DNA of 64,000 nucleotides from Paracoccaceae bacterium (lineage in GTDB: Bacteria > Pseudomonadota > Alphaproteobacteria > Rhodobacterales > Rhodobacteraceae), in NCBI GenBank assembly GCA_014872815.1, contig WKFK01000008.1, positions 240,534-304,533 on the forward strand, in the 5' to 3' direction. The position numbers and the translations under genes were made by a program. The notes under the pieces were generated by a model that saw nothing but the letters and a program-made list of their open reading frames with translations, did not search any database and was not told the DNA's origin. Below, in pieces: positions 13,845 through 32,386 of the stretch (positions are counted from its first letter, which is position 1; every line of letters begins with the position of its first letter).

Positions 13845-13974
13845 GGCGGGTCCTATCGGTTTTTCTAATGTATCAAGTACGTTGTCCGGCTAGTGCAGGA
13901 TCATTTTGGCCGTCTTTAAGTCGTCTGAAGGGGGATCGCTTTCGTATGCAGTGGAAAGACTGTGGGAGAGCGGG

Positions 13975-15474: not shown

Positions 15475-15486
15475 AAGGAGCGTCTT

Positions 15487-15624
15487 ATGAAGATGCGCAA
15501 GAAATCTGATCTGCCGAGCAAGGTGTGCGCCCGCTGTCAGCGGCCATTTCGTTGGCGCAAGAAATGGGCCAAAGTCTGGGACGAGGTGCGCTATTGCTCA
15601 GACCGCTGTCGGCGTGGCGGCTAA
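15487..15624 (+). CDS. DUF2256 zinc-ribbon-like mini-protein
   Basis: A 45-residue protein with AAGGAG seven bases before ATG 15487. Four cysteines are arranged CARC...YCSDRC around an aromatic/basic core ([17 protein letters not shown]), which defines DUF2256, a small probable zinc-binding family regularly found beside photolyases. It is coupled to the upstream photolyase, and its stop overlaps the stop of the convergent FeS photolyase. A role as nucleic-acid-binding or folding partner is inferred from context only. Confidence 0.85.
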
Positions 15625-17171: not shown

Positions 17172-17182
17172 GAGAAAACCGT

Positions 17183-17704
17183 TCAGTTCAGCAGAGCTTC
17201 GATTTGCGAGGTGACGGCGTTGGACATCGGCTTGGTCTTAGAAGAAAACTCGGCGACCACTGCGCCATCCGGGCCAATCAGGACCTTGCTGAAATTCCAG
17301 CGTGGCACATAGCCAGCGTCCTCACGGAGCGACACAAAAAGCGGATGTGCAGATTTGCCTTTGACCGAGGTGATGCCCGTCATCGGCATGTCGATGCCAT
17401 ATTGCAGCTCGCAAAACTCTTTGACCTCTGCGTTTGTGCCCAGCTCTTGTTTGAAGTCATCCGACGGCACAGCGAGCACCACCAGCCCTTGATCGCGGTA
17501 GGTGTCATAGAGGTCCTGCAGCCCGCGGTATTGTTTGGTGAAGGCACATTGCGACGCCGTATTCACCACCAGTACCGGCTGTCCGGCCCAGTCCGAAACC
17601 GCAAGTGTGCCGCCGTCAATCGAGTCAAATTTGGCCGATAAATCCAAGGCAAAGGCAGCGCCCGCCGTGGATAGCGCGCAGATCAATGCAGATAGAAACT
17701 TCAT
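17183..17704 (-). CDS. Periplasmic glutathione peroxidase-like thiol peroxidase
   Basis: A 173-residue GPx-fold protein with a Sec signal (cleavage about residue 19, 'AFA-LD'). The peroxidatic residue is Cys in 'NTASQCAFTKQY'; Gln in 'PSDDFKQE' and Trp in 'PRWNFSKVLI' complete the catalytic triad. There is no Sec codon. Bacterial Cys-GPx enzymes usually take electrons from thioredoxin-like partners and reduce lipid or hydrogen peroxides; export to the periplasm is the unusual feature. It starts 11 bases before the FeS photolyase start in the same direction, suggesting a light/oxidative stress operon. Confidence 0.88.
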   Translation of the reverse strand: MKFLSALICALSTAGAAFALDLSAKFDSIDGGTLAVSDWAGQPVLVVNTASQCAFTKQYRGLQDLYDTYRDQGLVVLAVPSDDFKQELGTNAEVKEFCELQYGIDMPMTGITSVKGKSAHPLFVSLREDAGYVPRWNFSKVLIGPDGAVVAEFSSKTKPMSNAVTSQIEALLN

Positions 17705-17776: not shown

Positions 17777-18652
17777 TCACGCCTTCAGGTCATAAAACCG
17801 TGCGGCGTTGTCACCAAACACGGCGGCGTGCCAATCGTTGGGGACCAGCGTCTCCATGGCCGCGAACAGCGTGGAATAGTCTGAGTAGAGGCTGTCGACC
17901 GGGAAATTGGAGCCAAACATCACGCGGTCTTGGCCAAATTGGTTCAGGCAGGTTTGTACAATCGGCGCGATGGACTGCTGCGTCCACTGATGGTCAAACA
18001 TGCCAAGACCCGAGAGTTTGCAGGACACATTGGGCAGAGCGGAGAGAAGCGCTAGTTTCTTTGCCCAAGCCTCCAAGCCTGCCGTGCTGCGGTTATGCGG
18101 GGACCCGGCGTGGCAGAGCGCGACCTGTAAGTCTGGCACTTGCGCCAACACATGGGCGGTGTCCTCCATAAGCTCCGGGATCAGTTGCAGGTCAAAACGC
18201 AAACCACGCCGGGCAATCTCTTTCAAGCCAGCCAGAAAACGCGGATCTTGCAGCAAAGCGTTGGTGCCGGTTTGCGCATCCTCGCCCGGCGCGCGGCCGA
18301 CAATTTGGCGCACGCCTCGCAGAGTGGGGAGCGCTTGCAAGGTATCAAGGTCACGTGCAAGCGTATCCGCTGTGAGATCACAAAACGCGACTTGAACCAA
18401 AGGCCAATGCGGGTTTGCCTCTGCCACGTCTTGCACCCAGAGCGCCTCTTGCAGCGGATCTTCAGCACCCACTTGAATATGGACAGACCCTGAAATCCCG
18501 TGTTGTTTCGCTTCACCGCTGAATTCTTCCAGCAGGTAGTTGCGCTGAATGGGGGCTGGGTTGCCAAAGAACCGCCCAACCCCTTGCGCCATCAGCCAGG
18601 GGTAATGCACGGCGGTCAGATCCCAGAGGTGGTGATGCGCGTCGATCCTCAT
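17777..18652 (-). CDS. Amidohydrolase family protein (lactonase-like, COG3618 type)
   Basis: A 291-residue TIM-barrel hydrolase. 'IDAHHHLWDL' at the N-terminus, 'VALCHAGSP' and 'VMFGSNFPVD' carry the His and Asp residues that define the L-fuconolactonase / 2-pyrone-4,6-dicarboxylate lactonase group. It likely opens a lactone ring. Its start overlaps the stop of the SnoaL-like gene at 18649 by four bases, so it is the second gene of the leftward arm of the SnoaL-rich island, behind the two LacI-type operators. Confidence 0.82.
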   Translation of the reverse strand: MRIDAHHHLWDLTAVHYPWLMAQGVGRFFGNPAPIQRNYLLEEFSGEAKQHGISGSVHIQVGAEDPLQEALWVQDVAEANPHWPLVQVAFCDLTADTLARDLDTLQALPTLRGVRQIVGRAPGEDAQTGTNALLQDPRFLAGLKEIARRGLRFDLQLIPELMEDTAHVLAQVPDLQVALCHAGSPHNRSTAGLEAWAKKLALLSALPNVSCKLSGLGMFDHQWTQQSIAPIVQTCLNQFGQDRVMFGSNFPVDSLYSDYSTLFAAMETLVPNDWHAAVFGDNAARFYDLKA

Positions 18653-19653
18653 GTGCGGGGCATCTCCGCCATGCGGGCCAGAACATCGACGCCCTGCTGT
18701 TTCCAGAAGTGCAGCAGGTCGATGAAGATCCAGTTTTCAGCCAGTTTATCGCCGTCGCGGCGGTAGATGTCGATCACGCGGAACTCACCGGGCTTGCCGG
18801 TCGCGGGCATGCCCATGAAGCCACCGGTTGGCGTTGCGGTAAAGTTTGGCCAGCCAAAAAAGCCGCCAAAATGCCCTTCGGCCATACGGCAGATGTGATT
18901 GGTTTTGGAGCGATTCGTGAAGCCCGCACGGAAGGGACCGGAGTGTTGTTTCGCATAGCGCGGGATGGTGTAGGTCGCGCCAATGCCGGCTGGGCCCCAC
19001 CAGATCATGTCCTCATGCCAGGTTCGGCGCAGCTCGTCTTCTAGGCTCAATCCACTGTTCCATTGCCCGAGGTCGGTGATCATCGCGTTGATCGCAGCCA
19101 GGGTTTTTTCTCCGGTCTCGGGCGGCTGCGCTGTGAACATCAGGCCGTCATGCGTCATCGGGCCGGGTTGCACCAGGTGTGCGGCGGTTTGCGGTGGAAA
19201 CGGTCGTAGCCCCGCCTGCATCATCAGGTGGGGGATGTCGAAATACATCGCGGTTTCTGTCACTTGGCCGTTCTCAACCTTGTTGAACTCGCAGTAGCGT
19301 AGGAAGGCCATTTTGCCCGTGGGCGCGATGCCCAGCCACGGCGCATCAAACAGGCCCATCAGATGGCCCATGGACACCACCCATGTGGAGGTAAACCCGT
19401 CCATCTCGTTTTTGCCCGCCATAAAGACATCCTGGCGACGCTGCAGGTAGGTGAGGGCGGTTTTGAGCGGTGCCCAGAACTGGTCCGCCACAGCCTCGGG
19501 GGCATGGATTTCGTCAAACGGATGATAGCCGCGCCAGATATGATTCGACGCATAGTAACGTGTGAGGACTGCTTGGGTAGTCTCAGGCGAGGCGGCGTCC
19601 AAATACCTATAAAGCTCTGTTATTATACGTTTTTCTTCGGTGAAGTCAGTCAT
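18649..19653 (-). CDS. Tandem SnoaL/NTF2-like domain protein A
   Basis: A 334-residue protein with two NTF2-like cone domains (about 10-150 and 190-325). It shares with the protein at 26168 the signatures 'APWLGIAPTG', 'IPHLMMQAGL', 'WWGPAGIG' and 'ENWIFIDLL...QGVDVLARM', so the two are paralogues. SnoaL-like folds act as cyclases, isomerases, dehydratases or hydrolases; no mechanism can be assigned. It is the first gene of the leftward arm and its start codon lies 14 bases from operator 1. Confidence 0.7.
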   Translation of the reverse strand: MTDFTEEKRIITELYRYLDAASPETTQAVLTRYYASNHIWRGYHPFDEIHAPEAVADQFWAPLKTALTYLQRRQDVFMAGKNEMDGFTSTWVVSMGHLMGLFDAPWLGIAPTGKMAFLRYCEFNKVENGQVTETAMYFDIPHLMMQAGLRPFPPQTAAHLVQPGPMTHDGLMFTAQPPETGEKTLAAINAMITDLGQWNSGLSLEDELRRTWHEDMIWWGPAGIGATYTIPRYAKQHSGPFRAGFTNRSKTNHICRMAEGHFGGFFGWPNFTATPTGGFMGMPATGKPGEFRVIDIYRRDGDKLAENWIFIDLLHFWKQQGVDVLARMAEMPRT

Positions 19654-19666
19654 GGTTTGGGTTGCC

Positions 19667-19682
19667 TTGCATACGTTTGCAA
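19667..19682. promoter_or_regulatory. LacI-type operator 1
   Basis: TTGCATACGTTTGCAA is an inverted repeat with one mismatch and a central CG, the usual architecture of LacI/GalR operators. It differs at one base from the core of operator 2, whose centre is 55 bases away. It lies just upstream of the leftward SnoaL gene start. Confidence 0.62.
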
Positions 19683-19722
19683 AAAATTCTTGCCGAATTC
19701 CTAATCCTAAGTCTACCCTCTA

Positions 19723-19736
19723 TGCATACGTATGCA
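19723..19736. promoter_or_regulatory. LacI-type operator 2
   Basis: TGCATACGTATGCA is a perfect 14-base palindrome with central CG, 30 bases upstream of the ABC ATPase start. Together with operator 1 it probably binds the island's own LacI repressor (27987-29024) and controls both arms. Confidence 0.68.
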
Positions 19737-19766
19737 AAATGCATGTGACATCGGACGGGGGACCAC

Positions 19767-20819
19767 ATGGCCGAAATTCAGCTGCGCAATGTAGGCAAGC
19801 GCTGGGGCAGTTTTGTCGGGGTCGACAATTTTGATCTGACCATTGCGGATCAGGAGTTTCTGGTACTGCTTGGCCCCTCAGGCTGTGGCAAGACCACAAC
19901 CATGCGCATGATTGCTGGATTGGAAGACGCCAGCGAAGGCGACATCCTGATTGATGGCAAAAAGGTCAATGATCTCGAACCCAAAGACCGCGATGTGGCA
20001 ATGGTGTTCCAGTCCTACGCGCTTTACCCGAATATGAACGTCTATGAGAACATCCGCTTCCCACTGAAGGTGCGGGGGATTGATCCGGCGACACATGACG
20101 AAAAGGTGCGCCGCGCCTCTGCGATGGTTGAGCTGGACGAGTTTCTGCATCGCAAACCTGCAGAACTTTCCGGTGGTCAGCGTCAACGTGTGGCGCTCGC
20201 CCGCGCCATCGTGCGCGAACCCAATGTGTTCCTGATGGACGAACCGCTGTCCAATTTGGACGCGAAGCTGCGGGTTTCCACTCGTGCCCAGATCAAAAAC
20301 CTCAGCCATGAACTGTCCGTCACCACCATCTATGTGACCCACGACCAGATCGAAGCCATGACTTTGGCGGATCGTGTTGTGGTGATGAAAAAGGGTGTGG
20401 TGCAGCAGGTTGGTAGTCCAACAGAGATTTACGACGCACCCGCCAACACCTTTGTGGCCAGCTTCATTGGCAACCCGGCGATGAACCTGATGAGTGGCCG
20501 CATGGAAGGCGGCACTTTTGTCGCTGAAAACGTGCGTGTGGAAGGATTGTCTGCGCCGGACGGTCCTGTGACCTTGGGCTTCCGCGCTGAGGATGCGGGC
20601 CTTGGGGACGCAGGCCACCATGAAATCACCGCACCGATCTACACACTCGAGCTGCTCGGGGACGCCACCATGGTGACCGTCCGCATTGGCGGCGAGTTGG
20701 TCGCCGTGCGCGCACCCAAAGATTACCGATCACAGATTGGCGACACGGTATCTTTGTCCGTGCCCGCCGAGATTTGCCACCTGTTTGACGCCGAAACCGG
20801 CGCCAGAATTGAGGCCTGA
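19767..20819 (+). CDS. CUT1-type sugar ABC transporter ATP-binding protein (UgpC/MalK family)
   Basis: A 350-residue ATPase with Walker A 'GPSGCGKTT' (about residues 36-44), signature LSGGQRQR, Walker B 'VFLMDEPLSNLD', H-loop 'YVTHD' and a C-terminal TOBE domain (from about 235, 'FIGNPAMNLMSG'). It powers the importer formed with the two permeases downstream. It heads the rightward arm of the island. Confidence 0.93.
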   Translation: MAEIQLRNVGKRWGSFVGVDNFDLTIADQEFLVLLGPSGCGKTTTMRMIAGLEDASEGDILIDGKKVNDLEPKDRDVAMVFQSYALYPNMNVYENIRFPLKVRGIDPATHDEKVRRASAMVELDEFLHRKPAELSGGQRQRVALARAIVREPNVFLMDEPLSNLDAKLRVSTRAQIKNLSHELSVTTIYVTHDQIEAMTLADRVVVMKKGVVQQVGSPTEIYDAPANTFVASFIGNPAMNLMSGRMEGGTFVAENVRVEGLSAPDGPVTLGFRAEDAGLGDAGHHEITAPIYTLELLGDATMVTVRIGGELVAVRAPKDYRSQIGDTVSLSVPAEICHLFDAETGARIEA

Positions 20820-20836
20820 CGGCTTCACACCAACAA

Positions 20837-20884
20837 CCGGCGATCAACGCCGGGGGCGAGAGGGTGCGCGATTGCAAGGCGCAC
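20837..20884 (+). other. Two intercistronic stem-loops before the binding-protein gene
   Basis: CCGGCG (20837-20842) pairs with CGCCGG (20848-20853), and GTGCGC (20864-20869) pairs with GCGCAC (20879-20884). Neither has a T run. Such hairpins between transporter genes typically protect mRNA segments and allow higher expression of the binding protein. Confidence 0.45.
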
Positions 20885-20918
20885 CTGCAACCACAGAAAC
20901 GCAACAGGGAGATAAGTT

Positions 20919-22163
20919 ATGTTTCTAAAGAAAGTAACCGCCGCCGGTGCCTTTGCCGGTCTCATGGGAACCGCAGCCTTTGCTGCTGATTGCGGGCCAG
21001 AGGGCCAGTCGATCCGCATTCTCGCGTCCGACTTCCCAGCCATCCACGCGGTCGCCGGTGCCGCGGAAGCCAACTGTGCAAGTGGCGCCGCGGAGTTCAC
21101 CCGCAACCACACCACAGAGGCGCGCCAGATCATGAACGCGGCGCTGACGCCAAATCCGGCCGAGTACACCTCTGTGATCGTGGCCAACTCGACACTGACT
21201 CAACTGATGAACGACGGCCTTGTGCGTCCGCTCAACGATCTGGTTGAAAAATATGGACAAAACATTCCAGAGAACCTGCTGATCAGCATCGATGGCAACA
21301 TCATGGCTGTGGCCTTCATGGCAAACTCTCAGCATCTTTTCTCCCGTAAAGATCTTCTGGAGAAGGCAGGTGTTGCCGAGGTCCCATCTACCTATGCGGA
21401 AATGATCGATGCGGCCAAATCTATCCGCGACGCGGGCATCATGGAATATCCGGTGGTCATGAACATGAAAACCGGTTGGAACGTTGGTGAGTCATTCAAC
21501 CTCGCGTTCATGGCGCATGGCGGTGAGTTCTTTAAACCCGGCACCGCAGAGCCATCCGTGAACAGCCCAGCCGGTGTGGCCGCGTTGGAGACCCTCAAAG
21601 GTCTGGTGGAATATGCGCATCCGGATCACCTCACCCAAGCTTCCAACGAGACCCAAGGTCTGTGGGAAGCAGGCCAAGCGGCGCTGGGCATCATGTGGGG
21701 CTCGCGCGGCGCGCCGATCCTTGATGATGAAGGCTCCACCGCCGAGATTACCTCCAACACCGTTCTGTCCGCGGCTCCATCTGTTGAGGAAGGCGGCGTG
21801 CCAGGGGCAACTCTGTGGTGGGATGGCTTCACTATTGCCTCCAACGTTTCTGATGAAGAAGCCGAAGCAACCTTTGCCGCGCTGGCAAGTGCGCTGACCA
21901 AAGAGATGGTTATGGCCAACAACGACGACGCGGTCTGGCTGCTTGATGGCTTTACACCGGGTGCTGCCGCGGAAGGTGTTTCTGCTACTGCCAAGGCAGG
22001 CGCGAAGCCTTACCCAATGATCCCGCAGATCGGCCTGATGCACAATGCGCTGGGCGCGGAGTTGGCGGACTTCCTCAAAGGCGATGAAAGCGCAGAACAG
22101 GCGCTGGCGGATGTCGAGGCGGCCTACATCACCGCTGCCAAAGAAGCGGGCTTCCTCCAGTAA
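20919..22163 (+). CDS. Extracellular solute-binding protein of the CUT1 importer
   Basis: A 414-residue family 1 binding protein with a Sec signal (cleavage after 'AAFA', about residue 23). 'NAALTPNPAEYTSVIVANSTL', 'LVRPLNDLVEKYGQNIP' and 'AEVPSTYAEMIDAAKSI' follow the maltose/glycerol-phosphate binder pattern. It captures the unknown substrate in the periplasm. GGGAGA lies a few bases before ATG 20919. Confidence 0.9.
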   Translation: MFLKKVTAAGAFAGLMGTAAFAADCGPEGQSIRILASDFPAIHAVAGAAEANCASGAAEFTRNHTTEARQIMNAALTPNPAEYTSVIVANSTLTQLMNDGLVRPLNDLVEKYGQNIPENLLISIDGNIMAVAFMANSQHLFSRKDLLEKAGVAEVPSTYAEMIDAAKSIRDAGIMEYPVVMNMKTGWNVGESFNLAFMAHGGEFFKPGTAEPSVNSPAGVAALETLKGLVEYAHPDHLTQASNETQGLWEAGQAALGIMWGSRGAPILDDEGSTAEITSNTVLSAAPSVEEGGVPGATLWWDGFTIASNVSDEEAEATFAALASALTKEMVMANNDDAVWLLDGFTPGAAAEGVSATAKAGAKPYPMIPQIGLMHNALGAELADFLKGDESAEQALADVEAAYITAAKEAGFLQ

Positions 22164-22232
22164 CACTCCCCCTGAGCGGCTCTTCGGGGCCTCTCACCCC
22201 TCACTCTGATTTTCTCCACCGGGACGTAGGCT

Positions 22233-23264
22233 ATGAAGCATCGCACCTTTTTCTGGTTCATCTTACCGACGCTCTCCGCGATGATCCTATTCATCGCGCT
22301 GCCCATCGTTTCGGTGTTTGTTCAGTCGCTGTTTGTGGCGCATGAACAAGTGCTTGTGGTGTCTGAAAGCTGCGGTCCGTTTGGCTGTACCCCCACGACA
22401 TCCGTCGATCTGGAAGCCACCGAGAAGCTCCGCGAAGAGGCGCCTTTGGGGCGGTTCAACGGGTTGGGCACCTATTTCAACCGCTCCCATCTGGCGATTG
22501 CCGAAATCGGTGAAGCCTGGGCGAATTCTGACAGTCTGGGGACGTTCTGGACCCAGATTTACAACCTGCCATTCTACAACGCGTTGATCTTCACGCTGAC
22601 CTACACCTTTGTGGTCACACCGGCAGTGCTGGTCCTTGGCCTTGCCATCGCGGTTGGGGTGAACAACCTGCCACGCGCGCTCAAAGGCCCGTCGATCTTT
22701 GTCTCTCTCCTGCCGTTCCTTGTAACACCTCTGGTGGGGTCGCTGATCCTGTTTTGGATGGTGGATGGGGACGGTGTTATTGGCGCGACCATTCAGAAAA
22801 TCTTCAACGATCCTTCGCTGAGCCTGAAAGCCTCCACCGCGCTCACATGGATCATGCTGATCGTTTACGGCATCTGGCACACGCTGCCGTTCAGCTTCAT
22901 CACTTTTTACGCCGGGTTGCAGACCGTCCCAGACGACACGCTTGAGGCCGCACAGATCGATGGGGCGTCCAAGTGGCAGACCATGATCCACGTGGTGGTG
23001 CCGCATCTGATGCCGCTGGTCTCGTTTGTGACGCTGATGCTGATCATGGACAACCTGCGCGTCTTTGAACCGATCGTCAGCTTTTCGGCCGAGGCCCATG
23101 CCCGCTCCCTCAGCTGGGTGATCTTCAACGACCTGCGCGAAAGCGGCAATCCGCTCTACGCCTCCGCCGGAGCCACCTCCTTGCTGACCATCATTATCGT
23201 GATCTTCCTGATGATGCCCGTCTTGGTGCGCACCTGGCGCGACTTCACCCGCAAATCCCACTGA
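22233..23264 (+). CDS. Sugar-type ABC transporter permease 1 (MalF/UgpA-like)
   Basis: A 343-residue inner-membrane protein with about six helices and a periplasmic insert after helix 1 (about residues 40-110), as in MalF. The EAA loop reads 'EAAQIDGASKWQTMIHVVVP', the coupling helix to the ATPase. The next permease starts ten bases after its stop. Confidence 0.92.
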   Translation: MKHRTFFWFILPTLSAMILFIALPIVSVFVQSLFVAHEQVLVVSESCGPFGCTPTTSVDLEATEKLREEAPLGRFNGLGTYFNRSHLAIAEIGEAWANSDSLGTFWTQIYNLPFYNALIFTLTYTFVVTPAVLVLGLAIAVGVNNLPRALKGPSIFVSLLPFLVTPLVGSLILFWMVDGDGVIGATIQKIFNDPSLSLKASTALTWIMLIVYGIWHTLPFSFITFYAGLQTVPDDTLEAAQIDGASKWQTMIHVVVPHLMPLVSFVTLMLIMDNLRVFEPIVSFSAEAHARSLSWVIFNDLRESGNPLYASAGATSLLTIIIVIFLMMPVLVRTWRDFTRKSH

Positions 23265-23274
23265 GGACAGACCC

Positions 23275-24156
23275 ATGGCGACCAAAGCACAATCCCGTAT
23301 GACCCCGCTGAAGCTGTTCTCCTACACCTTCGTGGCGCTCTGGCTGATCATCGCAGCTTTCCCTTTCTTCTGGACCTTCTGGGGCAGCTTTAAAGTGCAG
23401 GCTGACTTCCTCTCCAAGGCGGACTGGCGCAATGCGCTTTATGGGGCCAACACCATTGCGCAGACCGGCAGCGCCTTTACCGCAGAGGCCTATCGCGGGG
23501 CCTGGATCGACGAAGAATTCTGGTTCAACTTCAAAAACACCGGCATCGTGGTGTTCTTCACCGTGGTGATTTCGCTGACCTTCGGTACGCTCGGCGGCTA
23601 TGCTTTGGCGCGCTCCGGCTTCCGCTACGCCTTCTGGATCCTGATGGCCGCGTTGGTATTCCGCGCCATGCCGCATATCACGCTGGTGTCCGGCTATCTG
23701 CTGCCATTTTTTGAGTGGAACGTCTGGGGCATCCTGCCCACCACCATCATCGTGCTTGTGGCCATTAATCAGCCGTTTACGCTCTGGATGCTGCACAGCT
23801 TTTTCAAAAACATCCCCAAAGACATGGACGAAAGCGCCATGGTCGACGGCTGCACCCGCTTCCAGGCCTTCCGCTATGTCATCGTGCCGGTGATGTGGCC
23901 AGGTGTGATCACCACAGGTCTGTTCAGTTTCCTCCTAGCCTATAACGATTTTACCGTCGCGGCGATGTTGTTGAGCGAAGAGAATGAGACCATCATTCCG
24001 GCGATCAACAGCTTCATGGGCACCACCCAGGTCGAGGGCAAAGTTATGTACGCCGTGGCCGCCGTGGTCTCCACCGTTGCACCGCTCTTTGTGCTGATCT
24101 TGTTCTTCCAGCGCCAGATTGTCTCCGGCCTGACCGCAGGGGCGGTAAAGGGATGA
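23275..24156 (+). CDS. Sugar-type ABC transporter permease 2 (MalG/UgpE-like)
   Basis: A 293-residue six-helix permease. The EAA loop is 'ESAMVDGCTRFQAFRYVIVP'. It pairs with permease 1 to form the channel. A roughly 130-base spacer follows, with a G/C hairpin at 24230-24246, then the single-domain SnoaL gene. Confidence 0.92.
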   Translation: MATKAQSRMTPLKLFSYTFVALWLIIAAFPFFWTFWGSFKVQADFLSKADWRNALYGANTIAQTGSAFTAEAYRGAWIDEEFWFNFKNTGIVVFFTVVISLTFGTLGGYALARSGFRYAFWILMAALVFRAMPHITLVSGYLLPFFEWNVWGILPTTIIVLVAINQPFTLWMLHSFFKNIPKDMDESAMVDGCTRFQAFRYVIVPVMWPGVITTGLFSFLLAYNDFTVAAMLLSEENETIIPAINSFMGTTQVEGKVMYAVAAVVSTVAPLFVLILFFQRQIVSGLTAGAVKG

Positions 24157-24229
24157 GTTCTTCCGCCCGTCATAGCGCCATGGCGCGTCATCCGGCGCTC
24201 AACAGAATGCCACGGGATTTCATAGGGCA

Positions 24230-24246
24230 GGGGGCATCACGCCCCC
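24230..24246 (+). other. Intercistronic hairpin
   Basis: GGGGGC-atcac-GCCCCC forms a perfect 6-base stem between the permease operon and the SnoaL gene at 24284. No T run follows, so processing or partial attenuation is more likely than full termination. Confidence 0.4.
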
Positions 24247-24283
24247 TCACAATCCCCAAAACCATTCTGAAAGGAGAGGCCCC

Positions 24284-24814
24284 ATGAAAGGCTCCCGCCC
24301 CGAACAAGCCGTGCTGTCGCGCGATACCGATATGAGCAAGACCGAAGCTACTCGCGCCGTGATTGAAGGCATGGTGGACGGCCTGAATGACCACCGCATC
24401 GACGATATTGGCGAGTTCTTCGCCCAAGGGTTCCGCTGGATGGGCAACCAAGGCTGCGGCACCAAAACCGGCCTGCAAGAGTTTCAAGACAACTGGCAGC
24501 GCCCGTTTCAGGCGGCGTTTTCGGATAAGACCTGCATCGATGAAGCCCGCCTCTACATGGGCGAATGGGCCGCTGCTTTTGGCCGTCAGGAAGCCACGCA
24601 CAGTGGCGAATTCCTCGGCATCGCTCCCACCGGCAAGCGGGTGGAAATTCGCTACATGGACTTCTGGAAAGTCGTCGACGGCAAAATCGTCGACAATTGG
24701 GTGAATGTGGATTTCGCCCATGTCGCCGCTCAGTTGGGCGTCGACCTCTTTAACGGCGAAGGCTGGGAAGCCTTTGACCGCGGCGAAAAAACCGCGCCGC
24801 GCCCCCAAAACTGA
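24284..24814 (+). CDS. Single-domain SnoaL/NTF2-like protein B
   Basis: A 176-residue protein; AGGAGAG lies just before ATG 24284. The fold region is about residues 17-160, with the SnoaL signature '[32 protein letters not shown]' and '[11 protein letters not shown]'. Its C-terminal half resembles the second domain of the tandem proteins at 18649 and 26168, suggesting duplication within the island. Function unknown; isomerase, cyclase or dehydratase are possibilities. Confidence 0.75.
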
Positions 24815-24837
24815 TCCTGTCAATTGAGGATAAGACA

Positions 24838-26166
24838 ATGACAATCGAGTATCTGAAACGCGGCAAAGACCAAGCGGAGCGTGCTGAAGACGACGCAAAA
24901 ACGCGCGCCGTTGTTGAGGCCACGCTGAAGGACATCGAAACCCGTGGCGACGCAGCTGTGCGCGACTTGTCGGAGAAATTCGACAATTACTCTCCAGCCT
25001 CGTTCAAATTGAGCCAGCAGGAAATCGACGATCTGATGGCGCAGTTGAGCGACCGAGAGTTGTCGGACATCAGGTTTGCTCAGGAACAAGTGCGCAACTT
25101 TGCTCAGGCACAGCGTGACACGATGCTTGACCTGGAAGTGGAAACGCTCCCCGGCGTTGTCCTCGGGCACAAAAACATCCCGGTCCAATCTGTGGGATGC
25201 TATGTGCCCGGGGGCAAGTTCCCGATGGTGGCCTCTGCACATATGTCGGTGGCCACTGCCTCGGTGGCTGGCGTGCCGCGCATCATTGCCTGCACGCCAC
25301 CATTTCAAGGCAAGCCCAACGCCGCTGTGATTGCGGCGATGCATCTTGGTGGCGCCCATGAGATTTATGTTATGGGCGGCATTCAGGCGATTGGCGCCAT
25401 GGCGCTGGGCACGGAAACCATTGATCCCGTGCATATGCTGGTTGGCCCCGGCAACGCCTTTGTTGCGGAAGCCAAGCGCCAGCTGTTTGGCCGCGTCGGC
25501 ATCGACCTCTTTGCCGGACCCACCGAGACCATGGTGATTGCGGACGAAACCGTGGATGCGGAAATCTGCGCCACCGACCTCTTGGGGCAGGCGGAACACG
25601 GCTACAACAGCCCCTGCGTGATGGTCACCAATTCCCGCCAGTTGGCTGAGGACACGCTTTCGGAAATCGACCGCATTCTGAAAATCCTACCGACAGCGGA
25701 TACCGCCTCTGTGAGCTGGGAAGAATACGGCGAAGTCATTGTTTGTGACACTTACGAGGAAATGCTCGAAGTGGCGGACGACATTGCGTCCGAGCACGTG
25801 CAGGTGATGACGGACCGCGATGACTGGTTCCTTGAGAACATGACCTGCTATGGCGCGCTGTTCTTGGGGCCGCGCACCAACGTCTCCAACGGGGACAAAG
25901 TGATTGGCACCAACCACACGCTGCCGACTAAAAAGGCCGGGCGTTACACCGGTGGTCTCTGGGTGGGCAAGTTCCTGAAAACCCACAGCTATCAGAAGGT
26001 GCTGACCGATGAGGCGGCTACGATGATTGGCGAATACGGCTCACGCCTATGCATGCTTGAGGGCTTTGTGGGCCATGCGGAGCAGTGCAATGTGCGGGTG
26101 CGTCGCTACGGTGGCATCAACGTGCCGTACGGCGAAGGTGCACCTTATCGGGAGGCGGCTGAGTAA
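24838..26166 (+). CDS. Histidinol-dehydrogenase-family alcohol dehydrogenase (HpsN-like)
   Basis: A 442-residue NAD- and zinc-dependent HisD-fold enzyme. Zinc and catalytic residues are present: '[11 protein letters not shown]' (Gln, His), 'ASEHVQVMT' (Glu-His) and 'GFVGHAEQC' (His). No histidine biosynthesis genes are nearby. HisD relatives in catabolic loci oxidise other primary alcohols in two steps to acids; the known example is sulfopropanediol 3-dehydrogenase HpsN. Here it likely oxidises the imported substrate or an intermediate. Coupled by two bases to the next SnoaL gene. Confidence 0.82.
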
Positions 26167-26167
26167 C

Positions 26168-27226
26168 ATGGCTGTCGACAAGCACACGCATCACAAACAG
26201 CTTGTCCAAGCGTTTCGCGATGCGACCTACAACTTCACCGAAGAGGGCGTCCGCAAGGCGCTCTCTGATCTTGCGACACCGGATGCGCTTTTCCGGCTGT
26301 GTCACCCTTTTGGTGACATGACCGGGCCGAATGCGTTTTATGAGGGCGCTTACGAGGGGCTGTTTGACGCTTGGCCCGATTTGGAGCGGCGGGACTATAT
26401 CGTCATGGCGGGACCGGATGAATTCGGCAACGACTGGGTCGGCTGCGGTGGCTACTACACCGGCGTGTTCACCGCGCCGTGGTTGGACATTCCTCCCACC
26501 GGCCATCAGGTGTCGATGCGCTATCACGAGTTCTTCCGTTTTGTAGATGGCAAAGTGGTTGAGTATCAGGCGCTCTGGGACATTCCTGAGGTGATGATGC
26601 AGGCCGATGCCTGGCCCATGGCGCCGTCGCTGGGGCGCGAATGGCATGTGCCTGGCCCCGCAACCGCAGACGGCTTGGTGCCCGGACCCTATGATGAAGC
26701 CAAAGGTAAAGAGACCTGCCAGCACATCATTGATATGCTGGAGCACCTGAAAAAGCACCCGCGTGATCCGGACCCACGCGCCATGAAGATGGATCACTAC
26801 TGGCATGAGCGTATGAGTTGGTATGGCCCAGCCGGTATTGGCACAGGACGTGGCGTGGCAGGGTTTCGCAACTGGCACCAGATCCCGTTTCTCAACGGCA
26901 TGCCGGATCGCGGCCAATATGTGGATGAGATCACCTATCACTTCTTTGGCGATGGCGAATATGCCGCGGTCACGGGCTGGCCCAACATGATCCAGACTGT
27001 CACCCACGACGGCTGGATGGGCATCGCGCCTGCCGGCAAAAAGATCACCATGCGCAGCTTGGATTTTTGGCGGTTGGAAAACGGAAAAATCCGCGAAAAC
27101 TGGGTCTTGGTCGATCTTTTGGATGCCTATCGCCAATTGGGTGTGGACGTCTTTGCCCGGTTGCGGGAATTCAACAAGGTGCGCAGTATGGCGCGGCTGA
27201 ATATCCCGGATGGAATGAGCCAATGA
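26168..27226 (+). CDS. Tandem SnoaL/NTF2-like domain protein C
   Basis: A 352-residue protein from ATG 26168, immediately after the HisD-like stop (a longer frame opens at 26027). Two NTF2-like domains lie at about 5-150 and 195-335. Landmarks are 'APWLDIPPTGHQVSMRYHEFF', 'IPEVMMQADAW', 'WYGPAGIG' and 'GWMGIAPAGKKITMRSLDFWR'. It is a paralogue of the protein at 18649 with the same domain order. Its stop overlaps the SDR start (ATGA). Confidence 0.75.
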   Translation: MAVDKHTHHKQLVQAFRDATYNFTEEGVRKALSDLATPDALFRLCHPFGDMTGPNAFYEGAYEGLFDAWPDLERRDYIVMAGPDEFGNDWVGCGGYYTGVFTAPWLDIPPTGHQVSMRYHEFFRFVDGKVVEYQALWDIPEVMMQADAWPMAPSLGREWHVPGPATADGLVPGPYDEAKGKETCQHIIDMLEHLKKHPRDPDPRAMKMDHYWHERMSWYGPAGIGTGRGVAGFRNWHQIPFLNGMPDRGQYVDEITYHFFGDGEYAAVTGWPNMIQTVTHDGWMGIAPAGKKITMRSLDFWRLENGKIRENWVLVDLLDAYRQLGVDVFARLREFNKVRSMARLNIPDGMSQ

Positions 27227-27987
27227 CTGACCTGCCCCGCACCCCTTCCTTTTCACTGAGCGGCAAAACCGCCCTTGTCACCGGTGCCTCGTCAGGCATT
27301 GGGCAGGGCTGTGCCGTGGCGCTGGCCGAGGCTGGCGCCCATGTGATTTGCGCAGCGCGCGGGGCAGATAAGCTAGAAGACACCGTCGCGGCCATGACGG
27401 CGGCGGGTATGAGCGCCGAGGCGTTGGTGTTGGACCAAAGCGACCTCACCGCGCTGGCGCAGGTGTTTGAAACGCACGACATCGACGTTGTGGTGAATTC
27501 TGCCGGTCTGGCGCGGCACGGCCCAGCTGTTGAGACCACGCCAGAGGATTATGACGCGGCCATGAGCCTCAACCTGCGCTCAGCCTATTTCCTGTCAGCC
27601 TATGCGGCTAACGCGTTGATCGCGGCGGGCAAACCCGGTTCCATCATCCACATCTCCAGCCAAATGGGCCATGTTGGCGGTGTGGACCGCGCGGTCTACT
27701 GCGCCTCCAAACACGGCCTTGAAGGCATGGTGAAAGCCATGGCGATTGAGTGGGGACCGTCACAAATCCGCATCAACACGGTCTGCCCGACGTTTATCAA
27801 AACGCCGCTCACGGCGCAGACTTTTGAGCGGCCTGAGCGCAAAGCCTGGGTCGAGGAGAAAATCAAACTTGGCCGCATTGGCGAGGTTGAGGACATCATG
27901 GGCGCGGTGCTTTACCTCTCCTCTGATGCCAGCGCCTTGGTCACAGGCACTTCCATGTTGATTGACGGCGGGTGGACGGCAGACTGA
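27223..27987 (+). CDS. Short-chain dehydrogenase/reductase (classical SDR)
   Basis: A 254-residue NAD(P)-dependent oxidoreductase. Cofactor motif 'GASSGIG' (about residues 23-29), structural 'VVNSAG', catalytic Ser in 'HISSQMG' and Tyr/Lys in 'VYCASK' are all present, and it ends in the usual 'MLIDGGWTAD'. It probably oxidises a secondary hydroxyl of the pathway intermediate. ATG 27223 overlaps the upstream SnoaL stop, and its own stop overlaps the LacI start. Confidence 0.9.
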   Translation: MTDLPRTPSFSLSGKTALVTGASSGIGQGCAVALAEAGAHVICAARGADKLEDTVAAMTAAGMSAEALVLDQSDLTALAQVFETHDIDVVVNSAGLARHGPAVETTPEDYDAAMSLNLRSAYFLSAYAANALIAAGKPGSIIHISSQMGHVGGVDRAVYCASKHGLEGMVKAMAIEWGPSQIRINTVCPTFIKTPLTAQTFERPERKAWVEEKIKLGRIGEVEDIMGAVLYLSSDASALVTGTSMLIDGGWTAD

Positions 27988-29024
27988 TGGCTGAGAAAGT
28001 AACCTCCCTCCAAGTTGCCGAACGCGCCGGTGTCAGCCAATCCGCTGTGAGCCGCGTGTTCACACCCGGCGCCTCCGCCTCCAAAGCCACTGTTGAGAAG
28101 GTGCGCAAAGCTGCTGAGGAATTGGGATATCGCCCCAATGTTCTCGCCCGCGCCATGGTGTCCGGCAAAAGCCGCATCATCGGCCTCGTCGTGGCTTATC
28201 TGGACAACTATTTTTACCCGGAAGCGCTGGAAATCCTCTCAAACGCGTTGCAGGAAAAAGGCTACCACGTGCTTGTTTTCATGGCGTCGCAAACCGCCGG
28301 AAACATCGACGGCGTGGTCGAAGAAATCTTGGACTATCAGGTGGATGGCATTGTCACAGCCTCTGTAGCGATGTCTTCCGATCTGTCGGCGCGGTGTTTG
28401 CAGGTGGGCGTGCCTGTGGTGCATTTCAACAGATTTGAAGAGGCCAAAGGTGTCAGCTGTGTCACCTCCGACAACTTCGAAGGCGGTCGCCAACTGGCAC
28501 AGTTCCTCGTCGCAGGCGGCCACAAAAAAATCGGCCACATCGCCGGTTGGGAAGGCGCGTCTACCCAACGCGATCGCGAAGCCGGGTTCCGCGCGGGACT
28601 TAAAGAAGCGGGGCAGGACTTGTTCGCCCGCGAGGTTGGCGATTTTGACGTGGATCGCGCCCGCGCCGCAGCCTCCGCCATGTTCGACGTGCCGGAAGCC
28701 AAACGCCCGGACGCGGTTTTTGTGGCCAATGATCACATGGCCTTTGCTGTCATGGACGAGCTGCGCTTTGGTCTTGGGCTTAAGATCCCTGACGACGTGT
28801 CCGTTGTCGGCTTTGACGACGTGCCGCCCGCGGCATGGCGCGCCTATGACCTCACCACCATGCGCCAGCGCGCCAATCTGATGGTGGAAGAAACCGTCGA
28901 GGCGCTGCTGGCGCATATCGAAAATCCGGCAACTGCCACTCCAAGGCAGGTCGCCATTTCAACCCCGCTGATCGTGCGCGGTTCTGCGCGCCTACCAGGC
29001 ACCTGGCCTCCAAAAGAAGGATAG
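27987..29024 (+). CDS. LacI/GalR family transcriptional regulator
   Basis: A 345-residue repressor. The N-terminal HTH and hinge read 'TSLQVAERAGVSQSAVSRVF' and 'KVRKAAEELGYRPN'. A periplasmic-binding-protein-like effector domain follows (from about 60), suggesting a sugar or small polyol ligand. ATG 27987 overlaps the SDR stop by one base. It most likely recognises the TGCATACGTATGCA palindromes at 19667-19736 and so controls both arms of the island. Confidence 0.88.
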   Translation: MAEKVTSLQVAERAGVSQSAVSRVFTPGASASKATVEKVRKAAEELGYRPNVLARAMVSGKSRIIGLVVAYLDNYFYPEALEILSNALQEKGYHVLVFMASQTAGNIDGVVEEILDYQVDGIVTASVAMSSDLSARCLQVGVPVVHFNRFEEAKGVSCVTSDNFEGGRQLAQFLVAGGHKKIGHIAGWEGASTQRDREAGFRAGLKEAGQDLFAREVGDFDVDRARAAASAMFDVPEAKRPDAVFVANDHMAFAVMDELRFGLGLKIPDDVSVVGFDDVPPAAWRAYDLTTMRQRANLMVEETVEALLAHIENPATATPRQVAISTPLIVRGSARLPGTWPPKEG

Positions 29025-29030
29025 ACCCCC

Positions 29031-30020
29031 ATGCAAGGCTTCGATGCGAAATTTCAGGATTTCCCCGATTACATCATCGGCATCACCAAAGAGATTTGGG
29101 AAGATCGGGGCATTGCCACGCTGCACCACTATTACAGCGATGACATCGTTGTGCGATCTCCGGCCTCCGTGGTGCTGGGCAATCAAAATGTCATCGGCGC
29201 AACCATGGCCACATTGGCGGAATTTCCGGATCGGCAGTTGCTGGGTGAAGATGTGATTTGGTCCGGTACGCCGGAGGAGGGCATGCTCAGCTCTCACCGG
29301 ATCATCTCCACCGCCACTCATATGGCGGATGGCGTCTATGGCAAGGCGACCGGCAAGCAACTGCGCTATCGCATCCTGGCGGACTGTCATGCGATCAACA
29401 ATCAGATCAATGACGAATGGCTGATCCGCGATCAGGGCGCCATCGTGCGTCAAATGGGGTGGGAGCCCAAGGAATACGCCGCCAACCTGATCGAGGCCGA
29501 AGGTGGCTCGGCCAACTGCGTGAAGCCTCTAACGCCACACACGGACCAGCCTGGCCCTTACAAAGGCAAGGGCAACGACAACGCTTGGGGCGCCCGTTAC
29601 GGCGATATTCTCAACCGCATCATGGGCGCGGATATTGCGGCGATTGAGGCGGAGTACGACCGCGCTGTGCAATCCGAATATGTCGGTGGCGTGACTGGCC
29701 ACGGCTGGGACGCGGTGGACCGCTTCTGGATGGGATTGCGCGCCAGCTTCCCGAACGCGGAGTTTAAAATCGAGCACCAGATTGGTCGCGATGATCCGAT
29801 GATGCCGCCCCGCGCCGCGATCCGGTGGAGCCTCTGGGGCAAACACGACGGCTGGGGCTCTTTTGGGGCGCCTACGGGCGCAGAGGTCTATGTGCTGGGC
29901 ATCAGCCACGCCGACTTCGGTGCACTGATCACCGATCAGCCCAAAGTGCGCCGTGAATACACGCTGTTTGATGAAACCTCGGTCTGGAAACAGATCCTCC
30001 TGCAAACCGGTCAGGCGTGA
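29031..30020 (+). CDS. Tandem SnoaL/NTF2-like domain protein D
   Basis: A 329-residue protein with AAGGA before ATG 29031. Two SnoaL-like regions are visible, about 10-140 ('YYSDDIVVRSPASVVLG', 'NQINDEWLIRDQGAIVRQMG') and about 190-320 ('GVTGHGWDAVDRFW', 'GSFGAPTGAEVYVLGISH'). It diverges more from proteins A and C than they do from each other. It raises the island's total to about seven NTF2-like domains in four proteins. Biochemical role unknown. Confidence 0.68.
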   Translation: MQGFDAKFQDFPDYIIGITKEIWEDRGIATLHHYYSDDIVVRSPASVVLGNQNVIGATMATLAEFPDRQLLGEDVIWSGTPEEGMLSSHRIISTATHMADGVYGKATGKQLRYRILADCHAINNQINDEWLIRDQGAIVRQMGWEPKEYAANLIEAEGGSANCVKPLTPHTDQPGPYKGKGNDNAWGARYGDILNRIMGADIAAIEAEYDRAVQSEYVGGVTGHGWDAVDRFWMGLRASFPNAEFKIEHQIGRDDPMMPPRAAIRWSLWGKHDGWGSFGAPTGAEVYVLGISHADFGALITDQPKVRREYTLFDETSVWKQILLQTGQA

Positions 30021-30174
30021 ATTTTAGCCTGACATATCCACGGCTGTGCAACACGCAGGCGGCGCGGCGTTTTCATGCGCATCGTGCCGCGTTGCGCGCA
30101 CGGCGCTTGAACAACCGTCCTCCTGGGGCGGGGTCCTTTTCGATCCCAATCCAAACCCCACAAGGAGACACAAG

Positions 30175-31131
30175 ATGAGTTCTATCCAATCCCGCATTGT
30201 CCGTTACGGCGAATTGAAACCCTGCAAAACCGCCTTCATCGACGCCCACACACCGGGCAGCGATCAGAAAGAAAACTTCACTATTGTTGGCGGCGGTGTG
30301 TCTGAATCTCCAGACCAGCATGTGCACATCACCGACAAGATCGGCTTTAACATAGGCGCGGCGGGACAGCCGCCTAAATGTCGCAACAGCTTGCACAGCC
30401 ACACCACCGCTGAAGTGTTCTTCGTGGCAAAAGGCCGCTGGCGCTTTTTCTGGGGCCTGCACGGTGACGCCGGAGAGTTCATCGCTGAAGAAGGCGATAT
30501 CTTCAACATTCCCACCGGGATTTTCCGGGGCTTTGAAAACGTTGGTCAGGACTACGGGATGATCATGGCGATCCTCGGCGGCGATGACGCGGGTGGCGGC
30601 GTCACCTGGGCACCCCATGTGATTGAAGACGCGCAGGCCCATGGCCTGATGCTGGGCGACAATGGTGTGCTTTACGACAGCAAGAAGGGCGAAGAGCTTC
30701 CCCACAATGTGCGTCCTATGCCGCTGTTGACCGAAGAGGACTTAAAAGCCTTCCCCGAAGTGCCGGTGGAAGAGGTGATGCCTTATGTGGCGCGGTATTG
30801 GGATCTGATGGCGTTGGCAGCAAAGGTCCCGGCCAAGGTCATTGGCGAGAACGCGATCATCAAAGACAAGCCGGGGTTTGAGGTCGATTTCCTCACACGT
30901 GGCTCTGCCGTAACAGATCCGGTGACCACCACGCAGCCTGTGGTGCTGATGCCCGCCAGTGGCCACTGGCGCATCACCATCAACGACGTGGAGGTCACCT
31001 TGTCCGCAGGGGACACAGCCGTGGCATTGCCGGGCGAAAGCTACAGCGTGGCACCGTCGATGACGGGAGAAGCGGGGCTTTACCGCATCACCGCGACAGA
31101 CGATGCCGCGGGTGCCACCTGGACCGGGTAA
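30175..31131 (+). CDS. Bicupin protein
   Basis: A 318-residue protein with AAGGAG eight bases before ATG 30175. The first cupin (about 60-150) has 'NSLHSHTTAEVFFVAKGRWRFFWG' and 'EEGDIFNIPTGIFRGFEN', with His/Glu positions fit for a metal. The second (about 245-310) reads 'LMPASGHWRITINDVEVTLSAGDTAVALPGESY' and seems to lack the metal His set. Bicupins include sugar-acid isomerases and dioxygenases. Last gene of the island; a hairpin follows. Confidence 0.72.
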   Translation: MSSIQSRIVRYGELKPCKTAFIDAHTPGSDQKENFTIVGGGVSESPDQHVHITDKIGFNIGAAGQPPKCRNSLHSHTTAEVFFVAKGRWRFFWGLHGDAGEFIAEEGDIFNIPTGIFRGFENVGQDYGMIMAILGGDDAGGGVTWAPHVIEDAQAHGLMLGDNGVLYDSKKGEELPHNVRPMPLLTEEDLKAFPEVPVEEVMPYVARYWDLMALAAKVPAKVIGENAIIKDKPGFEVDFLTRGSAVTDPVTTTQPVVLMPASGHWRITINDVEVTLSAGDTAVALPGESYSVAPSMTGEAGLYRITATDDAAGATWTG

Positions 31132-31139
31132 ATTATCAA

Positions 31140-31173
31140 GCCTTGCGCGGGGCGGTCTGCCGCCGCGCAAGGC
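31140..31173 (+). terminator. Strong stem-loop after the bicupin gene
   Basis: GCCTTGCGCGG (31140-31150) pairs perfectly with CCGCGCAAGGC (31163-31173). There is no T run, so it may be a factor-assisted terminator or a 3' mRNA-stabilising hairpin closing the SnoaL island transcript. Confidence 0.55.
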
Positions 31174-31217
31174 GCTCAAACGTTAACGGTGTTGGCTGGC
31201 GGAGTGCACCTCCGCGA

Positions 31218-31239
31218 TACCGACGCAATACCGACGTGA
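31218..31239. repeat. Iterated 11-base element, copy 2 (upstream of the MetE-like operon)
   Basis: ATACCGACGCA followed by ATACCGACGTG, then a third degenerate unit (ATACAGACAGG, 31240-31250). The 22-base block is identical to 7984-8005 in the opposite orientation. It sits 23 bases before the MetE-like start, so it covers the promoter or leader. A small palindrome CGGAG-tgcac-CTCCG lies just before it (31200-31214). Confidence 0.65.
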
Positions 31240-31261
31240 TACAGACAGGGAAAACGGCACG

Positions 31262-32386
31262 ATGAGCAAAATCTTAACAACCCATGTGGGCAGCCTGCCA
31301 CGCACCCAAGAAGTGGTGGATTTCATCTTCGCCCGTGAGCACGAAAAACCCTATGACCCGGCAGCGTTTGATGCGGCGATGACTGCGGCCGTGAACGAGA
31401 CGGTGCGCAAGCAGGTTGATGCTGGCGTTGATATCGTAAGTGACGGGGAAACCAGCAAAATCTCCTACGCCACGTATGTTAAAGATCGCTACACGGGGTT
31501 CTCGGGAGACAGCGAGCGCAACGCGCCAGCAGACCTCAAGATGTTCCCGTCTTTCCTGAAGCGATTGGCCGATGATGGAGGCACACCGCAATACGCCCGC
31601 CCGAAATGCACCGGTGAGGTACGCAGCAAAGGGCAGAGGGAATTGATGAAAGATATCAATAACCTGAAGGCCGCTATGAAGGCTCACGGCGTGGAGCGGG
31701 GGTTTATGAATGCCGCCTCGCCGGGAGTGATTTCGCTGTTTTTGCAGAACGATCACTACGCCAGCCGCGAAGCTTATCTGGCCGCCCTCGCGGATGCCAT
31801 GAAGGATGAGTATGAAACCATTGTTTCCAATGACTTAGACCTGCAATTGGATTGCCCTGATTTGGCCCTGTCCCGCCATATGTTGTTTAACGATCTAAGT
31901 GATGCGGAGTTCCTTGAGATCGCGAACTTGCATGTGGAGGCCCTCAATCACGCCCTGGAGAACGTGCCGCAAGAGCGTGTAAGGGTCCATATTTGCTGGG
32001 GAAATTACGAGGGTCCACATTGTTGCGACATCCCGATGGACAAGGTGTTTAGCACATTGATGGCGACAAAGTCGCGTTACGTGCTGTTTGAAACCTCCAA
32101 TCCGCGTCACGCGCATGAGTGGACGGTGTTTCGTGACCGCAAATCTGACATCCCTGATGACAAAACACTTGTGCCTGGTGTCGTCGATACCACCACCAAT
32201 TTTGTCGAGCATCCGGAGCTGGTTTCCCAACGTATTCAACGCTTTACTGACATTGTTGGTGCAGACAGGGTGATCGCCGGCAGTGACTGCGGTTTTGGCA
32301 CCTTTGCAGGGTTTGGGGCAGTGGACCCAGACATCGCCTACGCCAAACTGTCTGCCTTGAGCGAAGGGGCGGCTGCGCTGTCATGA
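31262..32386 (+). CDS. Cobalamin-independent methionine synthase II-like protein (MetE C-terminal domain family)
   Basis: A 374-residue (beta/alpha)8 protein corresponding to the catalytic half of MetE only. 'TTHVGSLPRT' opens it; 'VRVHICWGN' and 'IAGSDCGFGTF' carry the His and Cys zinc ligands. Stand-alone proteins of this type are thought to demethylate small methylated substrates rather than make methionine from folate. It is coupled by ATGA to the hydrolase at 32383, so it probably acts in a small catabolic pathway. Confidence 0.8.
   Translation: MSKILTTHVGSLPRTQEVVDFIFAREHEKPYDPAAFDAAMTAAVNETVRKQVDAGVDIVSDGETSKISYATYVKDRYTGFSGDSERNAPADLKMFPSFLKRLADDGGTPQYARPKCTGEVRSKGQRELMKDINNLKAAMKAHGVERGFMNAASPGVISLFLQNDHYASREAYLAALADAMKDEYETIVSNDLDLQLDCPDLALSRHMLFNDLSDAEFLEIANLHVEALNHALENVPQERVRVHICWGNYEGPHCCDIPMDKVFSTLMATKSRYVLFETSNPRHAHEWTVFRDRKSDIPDDKTLVPGVVDTTTNFVEHPELVSQRIQRFTDIVGADRVIAGSDCGFGTFAGFGAVDPDIAYAKLSALSEGAAALS

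Follow-up and report, generated by a model that had tools for sequence, protein, structure and literature searches.

The window, a stretch of 64,000 nucleotides of contig WKFK01000008.1 from a Paracoccaceae bacterium, carries at positions 17777-33770 a gene cassette that sequence comparison shows to be conserved, self-contained and operator-defined, with an importer and a full enzyme set. It is probably dedicated to the catabolism of one class of imported small molecules, polar, methylated and carrying a hydroxymethyl group, with a ring or polyol core and variable decorations, and would be induced by its substrate. The cassette is organized in two divergent operons, as delimited by the coordinates of the open reading frames (ORFs) and by conservation across related loci. 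The leftward operon consists of snoA (18649-19653) and the gene of an Amidohydro_2 protein (17777-18652). The rightward operon runs from the importer ATPase to the RraA-like protein, in the order given below.

17777-18652, minus strand: Amidohydro_2 family hydrolase, lactonase-like, accessory (PF04909, 127 bits)
18649-19653, minus strand: snoA, tandem SnoaL protein of the leftward operon (PF07366, two stretches)
19667-19682: LacI-type operator 1 (predicted), TTGCATACGTTTGCAA, from a palindrome search
19722-19737: LacI-type operator 2 (predicted), ATGCATACGTATGCAA, 55 bp from operator 1, from a palindrome search
19767-20819, plus strand: CUT1-type importer ATPase, UgpC/MalK type (PRK11650, 449 bits, cut-off 432)
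20919-22163, plus strand: extracellular solute-binding protein, sugar type
22233-23264, plus strand: importer permease 1 (UgpA-type match, 54.7 bits, below cut-off)
23275-24156, plus strand: importer permease 2 (MalG-type match, 79.4 bits, below cut-off)
24284-24814, plus strand: snoB, single SnoaL domain (PF07366, 77.5 bits)
24838-26166, plus strand: HisD-like dehydrogenase, putative third subfamily, motif GKFPM (PF00815, 445 bits)
26168-27226, plus strand: snoC, tandem SnoaL protein (PF07366, two stretches)
27217-27987, plus strand: short-chain dehydrogenase/reductase (SDR), KduD-like (PF13561, 195 bits)
27972-29024, plus strand: LacI-family regulator, presumed to bind both operators (PF00356 and PF13377)
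29031-30020, plus strand: snoD, tandem SnoaL protein (PF07366 at residues 19-141, PF12680 at residues 199-295)
30172-31131, plus strand: cupin protein, one cupin domain detected (PF07883 at residues 68-131)
31262-32386, plus strand: MetE-like protein, Meth_synt_2 (PF01717, 48.4 bits)
32383-33078, plus strand: alpha/beta-hydrolase, PcaD-like (PF12697, 51.3 bits)
33075-33770, plus strand: RraA-family protein, probable class II pyruvate aldolase (PF03737, 61.3 bits)

A scan of named genomes with snoC yielded 342 confirmed loci, of which the best 80 were kept. The 59 of these that span at least 20.9 kb each form the full-length set, which, being taken from the best matches, leans towards close relatives. 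The genes snoB, snoC and snoD are present in all 59 full-length loci, the importer and lacI in 58, hisD in 56, and snoA, the SDR, cupin and alpha/beta-hydrolase genes in 55 each. The MetE-like gene and rraA each occur in 51 and the amidohydrolase gene in 32. All 14 rightward genes are collinear in 45 of the 59 loci, while the six tested flanking genes are found in none of them (the peroxidase-like one in 1 of all 80). This grouping exceeds chance, as the genes stay collinear while the tested flanks change. Conservation across Rhodobacteraceae and beyond, on which a preliminary description of this DNA had staked its proposal of an undescribed system, is thus borne out by the neighbourhood comparison with the tandem SnoaL protein. 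No paper describing the gene set was found in the openly accessible full-text literature (most subscription papers and preprints lie outside this coverage), in agreement with the claim that no described pathway has it.

The gene content was for the most part read correctly in that description. The ATPase exceeds the UgpC-type cut-off and is accompanied by two permeases and a binding protein with a sugar-type fold, which places the importer in the CUT1 type. Where about seven SnoaL domains had been counted, Pfam detects exactly seven, spread over four proteins: 18649, 26168 and 29031 have two apiece and 24284 has one. The HisD-like enzyme is supported by its PF00815 score, and the SDR, Amidohydro_2-family and LacI assignments have matching Pfam domains. 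Overlapping starts and stops are evident from the ORF coordinates at three places (18652/18649, 27226/27217 and 27987/27972). The supposed bicupin, on the other hand, has a single Cupin_2 domain and a C-terminal half without Pfam match. Nor does the right edge at 31131 stand: the genes within 17777-31131 belong to the unit, which runs on through the genes at 31262, 32383 and 33075 to 33770. These three are counted in because of their frequency in the full-length loci, against zero for the next genes out. The alpha/beta-hydrolase gene overlaps the MetE-like gene by 4 bp, and the RraA-like gene overlaps the hydrolase gene likewise. Apart from the downstream genes, that description had overlooked the pair of dedicated operators, the proposed steps of a terminal aldolase and of the MetE-like protein, and the HpsN kinship without sulfonate signature.

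The cassette is scattered over a wide range of organisms. A snoC match at E ≤ 0.001 was obtained in 17 of 60 drawn genomes (the host counted), 15 of them below 1e-150. Within the genus, the distribution is patchy, with strong matches in 12 of 24 other genomes. Phylum-wide, 22 of 398 genomes have a snoC match at 1e-30, and 9 of 369 genomes in the class of genome G309 have a snoA match at 1e-25. Some copies are plasmid-borne; phage records gave no match. Many marine bacteria have versions of the cassette, as do some rhizobia, Deinococcus and a haloarchaeon, so the substrate is probably a widespread natural compound. The Deinococcus taeanensis version combines HisD-like, tandem SnoaL, importer, cupin, hydrolase, LacI and SDR genes with an HpcH/HpaI-type aldolase. 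An inter-domain version is found on a plasmid of the haloarchaeon Halobellus limi (L124), where four tandem SnoaL genes and one single SnoaL gene accompany the importer and a MetE-like gene, not far from a DesA-like gene.

Palindromes of the form TTTGCATACGTATGCAAA sit in the divergent promoter. Allowing up to two mismatches, the two sites of the feature list are the only ones in the whole host genome. With at most one mismatch, each of ten relatives (10/10) has two sites, 54-56 bp apart and adjoining the snoA match. Among divergent promoters of related loci, 67 of 67 contain at least one site and 63 of 67 contain two (up to 4 of 18 mismatches). A reversed control pattern had no match in the host genome and one match in one of the ten relatives. 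Because the operator pair is found here only in the shared promoter, and likewise as two sites per genome in the relatives, this cassette is most likely the sole target of the LacI protein, as one dedicated regulon. The protein would bind the two predicted operators and keep both operons repressed as long as neither the substrate nor an intermediate is bound to it. Promoter- and terminator-like sites of the island were not clearly above those of shuffled sequence.

The importer is exchanged between loci. In 914 locus pairs with HisD proteins at least 90% identical, the binding protein is less than 60% identical in 56%, and the cupin, MetE-like and RraA-like proteins never are. The SnoaL proteins diverge to an intermediate degree between the two: snoA is below 60% identity in 4% of these pairs, and in 51% of the 1289 pairs with HisD at 80-90%. 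In some loci, additional tandem SnoaL genes have been inserted next to the importer. Since the binding proteins differ between loci whose HisD, cupin, MetE-like and RraA-like proteins remain alike, and the additional SnoaL genes lie by the importer, the substrate class may be one with a common core and variable decorations. The cassette ATPase and the fold of its binding protein resemble those of CUT1 sugar importers of the UgpC/MalK type, but the 72 binding proteins of related loci fall into five groups at 60% identity (sizes 41, 18, 9, 2 and 2). A profile search with the binding protein returned one distant match (5iai). Other types of transport take over in divergent loci, namely TRAP (L132, L171), TonB with SSF (L173, L169) and TonB with MFS (L133).

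The cassette SnoaL proteins have both the SnoaL fold and the Pfam domain. The snoC model (pLDDT, the predicted local distance difference test, 91.6) displays two NTF2-like domains. The earlier description rightly took 18649 and 26168 for paralogues (34% identity, E 6.9e-50). The SnoaL methyl-ester-cyclase model scores 44.1 bits for 24284 and 24.8 bits for 26168, below its cut-off of 200, and together with the catabolic setting this distinguishes the cassette from SnoaL polyketide cyclases. The tandem-NTF2 epoxide hydrolases Lsd19 and MonB superpose poorly as whole proteins (root-mean-square deviation 16-17), and again the setting here is catabolic. Tandem SnoaL relatives number 5276 at E up to 1e-20, and the 120 listed carry generic names or none, so that a large family is opened for enzymology.

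The closest solved structures to the HisD-like enzyme are dihydroxypropanesulfonate (DHPS)-3-dehydrogenases (E 1e-114, 8v35). According to PMC11382572, HpsN has the motif GRY[A/S]H with the sulfonate-binding His126, the catalytic residues Glu318, His319, Asp352 and Lys353, and a substrate that is a glycerol analogue. Relative to this description, the HisD-like enzyme keeps the catalytic Glu-His and Asp-Lys in the alignment (EH and DK), but has GKFPM in place of GRY[A/S]H, the sulfonate-recognising His being replaced by Met. GKFPM recurs in 100 counted matches, a count that includes the window's own and some loci twice. The enzyme passes the histidinol dehydrogenase model TIGR00069 (427 bits, cut-off 243.8), which may not separate HisD from HpsN-like proteins. 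It has GKFPM instead of the histidinol dehydrogenase motif GSAPL, and a stronger HisD match (563 bits) lies elsewhere in the genome. Judged by its motifs, the enzyme belongs with neither histidinol dehydrogenase nor HpsN but to a third subfamily, on offer for enzymology.

Two steps of the proposed route, methyl release and aldol cleavage, are approached through the MetE-like and RraA-like proteins. The MetE-like protein scores at best 87.5 bits with the curated model of cobalamin-independent methionine synthase (cut-off 406). Its HxC and C, which in that synthase are the zinc ligands, are conserved in at least 95% of 74 aligned sequences. On the sphingomonad plasmids listed (US6-1, PP1Y, RL4, RAC03 and two of Croceicoccus), a relative with 51-54% identity lies at most 7 kb from a DesA-type gene in 6 of 6 cases; in US6-1 and RAC03 this neighbour passes the syringate O-demethylase model (849.9 and 834.9 bits, cut-off 800). 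The SnoaL neighbourhood of Halobellus holds a DesA relative at a sub-threshold 470 bits. The association is one-way: Rhizobium and Agrobacterium account for most of the 60 DesA-type records listed (out of 81), and those records are missing from the 40 listed MetE-like ones (of 49). Taken together, the neighbourhoods point, though not firmly, to methyl-group release. In the Dietzia and Rhodococcus plasmids (L247, L248), the MetE-like gene heads a set common to both, which also encodes a 2-oxoglutarate oxygenase, a YaaH-type transporter, a PhyH dioxygenase and an HD-domain protein. The last two are, in Dietzia, a PhnY/PhnZ-like pair below cut-offs located beside the MetE-like gene, and the set is possibly a methylated-phosphonate pathway.

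The RraA-like protein matches 3noj (E 4e-4) and is the sole LigK-like match in the host genome. Its RDLGD, which at least 95% of 74 aligned sequences retain, corresponds to RDxxD, the metal-site motif of the 4-carboxy-4-hydroxy-2-oxoadipate (CHA) aldolase LigK. Among 32 divergent loci, RraA occurs without HpcH in seven, HpcH without RraA in five, both in two and neither in 18, although cut loci can hide either. The five HpcH proteins checked all carry PF03328 and match the HpaI, GarL and rhamnonate aldolase models below their cut-offs. As HpcH/HpaI-type aldolases replace RraA in distant versions, the route would end in a pyruvate-type aldolase step. Of the remaining enzymes, the SDR reaches 202.7 bits with the kduD model (cut-off 338.85), the cupin has a conserved HxHxxxE in the alignment of related sequences, and the alpha/beta-hydrolase, with 94.9 bits for the PcaDC model (cut-off 390), has a conserved triad of GxSxG, Asp and His.

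From these assignments we infer the following order and chemistry of steps. The ABC (ATP-binding cassette) importer would bring the compound in, and the tandem SnoaL enzymes would catalyze early acid/base steps such as dehydration, isomerisation, imine or aldol chemistry. By analogy with characterised relatives, the HisD-like enzyme would convert a primary alcohol into an acid by two NAD-dependent oxidations, and the SDR may oxidise a neighbouring secondary alcohol. The cupin and the alpha/beta-hydrolase would then open the skeleton, so that the RraA-type aldolase, elsewhere the HpcH/HpaI-type one, could split a 4-hydroxy-2-oxo acid to give pyruvate. The MetE-like enzyme would transfer the methyl group to a thiol such as homocysteine.

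Several observations weigh against this proposal. In the Vibrio and Halobellus versions, the importer and SnoaL proteins have neither HisD nor cupin nor RraA close by, which makes the downstream route optional. The MetE-like gene is absent from 8 of the 59 full-length loci, its DesA link is made of one lineage and the sub-threshold Halobellus case, and it has other partners in Dietzia, in Rhodococcus and in the three haloarchaeal records examined, which share no consistent partner gene. The likeness of the RraA-like protein to LigK is weak (29.5 bits with TIGR02798, cut-off 304.5), and no solved structure matched the cupin. At up to three mismatches, two matches to the operator pattern also arose in 2 of 100 shuffled versions of the window.

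A pathway for a sugar, sugar acid or polyol, along the lines of the preliminary description, is a fairly unlikely alternative. The SDR would make a lactone, the amidohydrolase would open it, the SnoaL proteins would dehydrate the product and the aldolase would cleave a 2-oxo-3-deoxy acid. It accounts for the sugar-type fold of the binding protein, the LacI regulator, the KduD-like SDR and the fuconolactonase-like hydrolase, and the aldolase end step fits it too, with replacing aldolases that resemble HpaI, GarL and rhamnonate aldolases (all below cut-off). However, the amidohydrolase scores 115.9 bits with the L-fuconolactonase model NF052480 (cut-off 400) and is absent from 19 of the 51 full-length loci whose sequence covers its place (the other full-length loci without it comprise two where the stretch is too short and six without leftward snoA). 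Its absence there means that ring opening by the amidohydrolase is not a general step, and the lactonase of the earlier description is at most a putative one. Moreover, no sugar kinase, glycosidase or sugar-acid dehydratase family is found among the island proteins, and we know of no sugar route with a role for a MetE-like enzyme or seven SnoaL domains.

Within the preferred reading of a cassette for methylated, hydroxymethyl-bearing molecules, a more specific and decidedly unlikely proposal is the degradation of gadusols or mycosporine-like amino acids, which serve algae, corals and cyanobacteria as sunscreens. The C7 core of these compounds is a ring bearing C(OH)(CH2OH) together with a methoxy substituent and keto or imino functions. 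The HisD-like enzyme would oxidise the CH2OH and the SnoaL proteins would release the amino acids. The cupin would perform oxidative ring fission beside the methoxy carbon, and the methyl could be lost by ester hydrolysis or by MetE-like transfer. The seven carbons would map exactly onto CHA, which the RraA-family aldolase would cleave to pyruvate and oxaloacetate. It is because this core and these enzyme classes would lead exactly to CHA that the proposal is made; the diversity of the binding proteins would reflect the many amino acids that decorate the core. Within the literature coverage given above, no set of bacterial genes for the catabolism of these compounds was found. Weak support is seen in amino-acid-disposal neighbours of tandem SnoaL genes (no background control): a serine dehydratase at about 3 kb in L182 (by Pfam) and L172 (by similarity), both of the same genus, aminotransferase and pyridoxal-phosphate-dependent lyase genes in L238, and a sarcosine oxidase in Vibrio. 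Other tandem SnoaL neighbours have no amino-acid link, namely Trk transport (L183), a 2-oxoacid dehydrogenase (L237), and a 2-hydroxyacid dehydrogenase with an M32 peptidase (L243). If true, the proposal would provide a genetic handle on the recycling of the sea's sunscreens.

A methoxylated aromatic, lignin-type pathway converging on CHA as in syringate catabolism is very unlikely. MetE-like relatives stand beside DesA-type genes, as do relatives of the alpha/beta-hydrolase (34-37% identity, in a large family), and LigK is an RraA-family member; these are the points of likeness to the syringate/3-O-methylgallate catabolism of sphingomonads (DesA, LigAB, LigK). In contrast to that system, the cassette has an importer, of sugar type, as well as tandem SnoaL and HisD-like proteins, and the host genome has no DesA/LigM-type demethylase (best 52.6 bits, cut-off 800) and no LigB-type ring-cleaving dioxygenase. 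The absence of both weakens this reading, and if the substrate were a methoxylated ring, its opening would not follow the known LigAB route.

A glyceryl compound, for instance the head group of a betaine lipid, is an extremely unlikely substrate; in this case the HisD-like enzyme would oxidise the glyceryl CH2OH and the MetE-like enzyme would take a methyl from the quaternary amine. The UgpC-like ATPase, the glycerol-analogue substrate reported for HpsN and the PhnY/PhnZ-like neighbours (below cut-offs) in Dietzia speak for it; on the other side, no ether-cleaving or betaine-specific enzyme was recognised, the seven SnoaL domains have no role, and the chemistry is our own construction. A sulfonate pathway, with the HisD-like enzyme as an HpsN acting on DHPS or a relative, is highly improbable and was rejected as the main explanation, in spite of the nearest solved relatives, because the HpsN motif is absent; furthermore, no sulfolyase appears among the annotated genes of ten tandem-SnoaL loci (whose gene tables are incomplete), and a separate HpsN-like gene with GRYRH lies elsewhere in the genome. 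The comparison with hps clusters leads in the same direction: PF00815, the nearest structures, the aligned catalytic residues and an SDR in the operon are shared, but the cassette has Met for His, and where hps clusters have sulfolyases it has genes for an importer and for SnoaL, cupin, MetE-like and aldolase proteins.

The GRYRH copy, at C13:72936 of this genome, has an open frame. A second HpsN-like gene with GRYSH (G000:C3:815282-816509; L122, L123) is in pieces with stops. The host genome measures 3.96 Mb in 16 contigs, and the GC content of the island is similar to that of its flanks. Left of the cassette, at 13906-17704 of the window, two photolyase/cryptochrome-like proteins and a glutathione-peroxidase-like protein were read from the translations; these neighbours occur in 0 of 59 full-length loci and are not conserved with the cassette.

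Further variations were noted in related loci. In Ruegeria sp. THAF33 (L130:18994-19596), the gene of a class I S-adenosylmethionine-dependent methyltransferase is inserted between the cupin and MetE-like genes, and a wider cupin-metE gap suggests the same insertion in many Ruegeria loci. A gammaproteobacterial version (L236:12674-14956) has a sulfatase gene inside the cassette, beside a TonB-receptor-like gene. In the gammaproteobacterial loci L172 and L182, the snoA relative is grouped with LacI, a porin-like protein (our own reading, without Pfam match) and an MFS-like gene, and this group faces an SSF symporter and the serine dehydratase.

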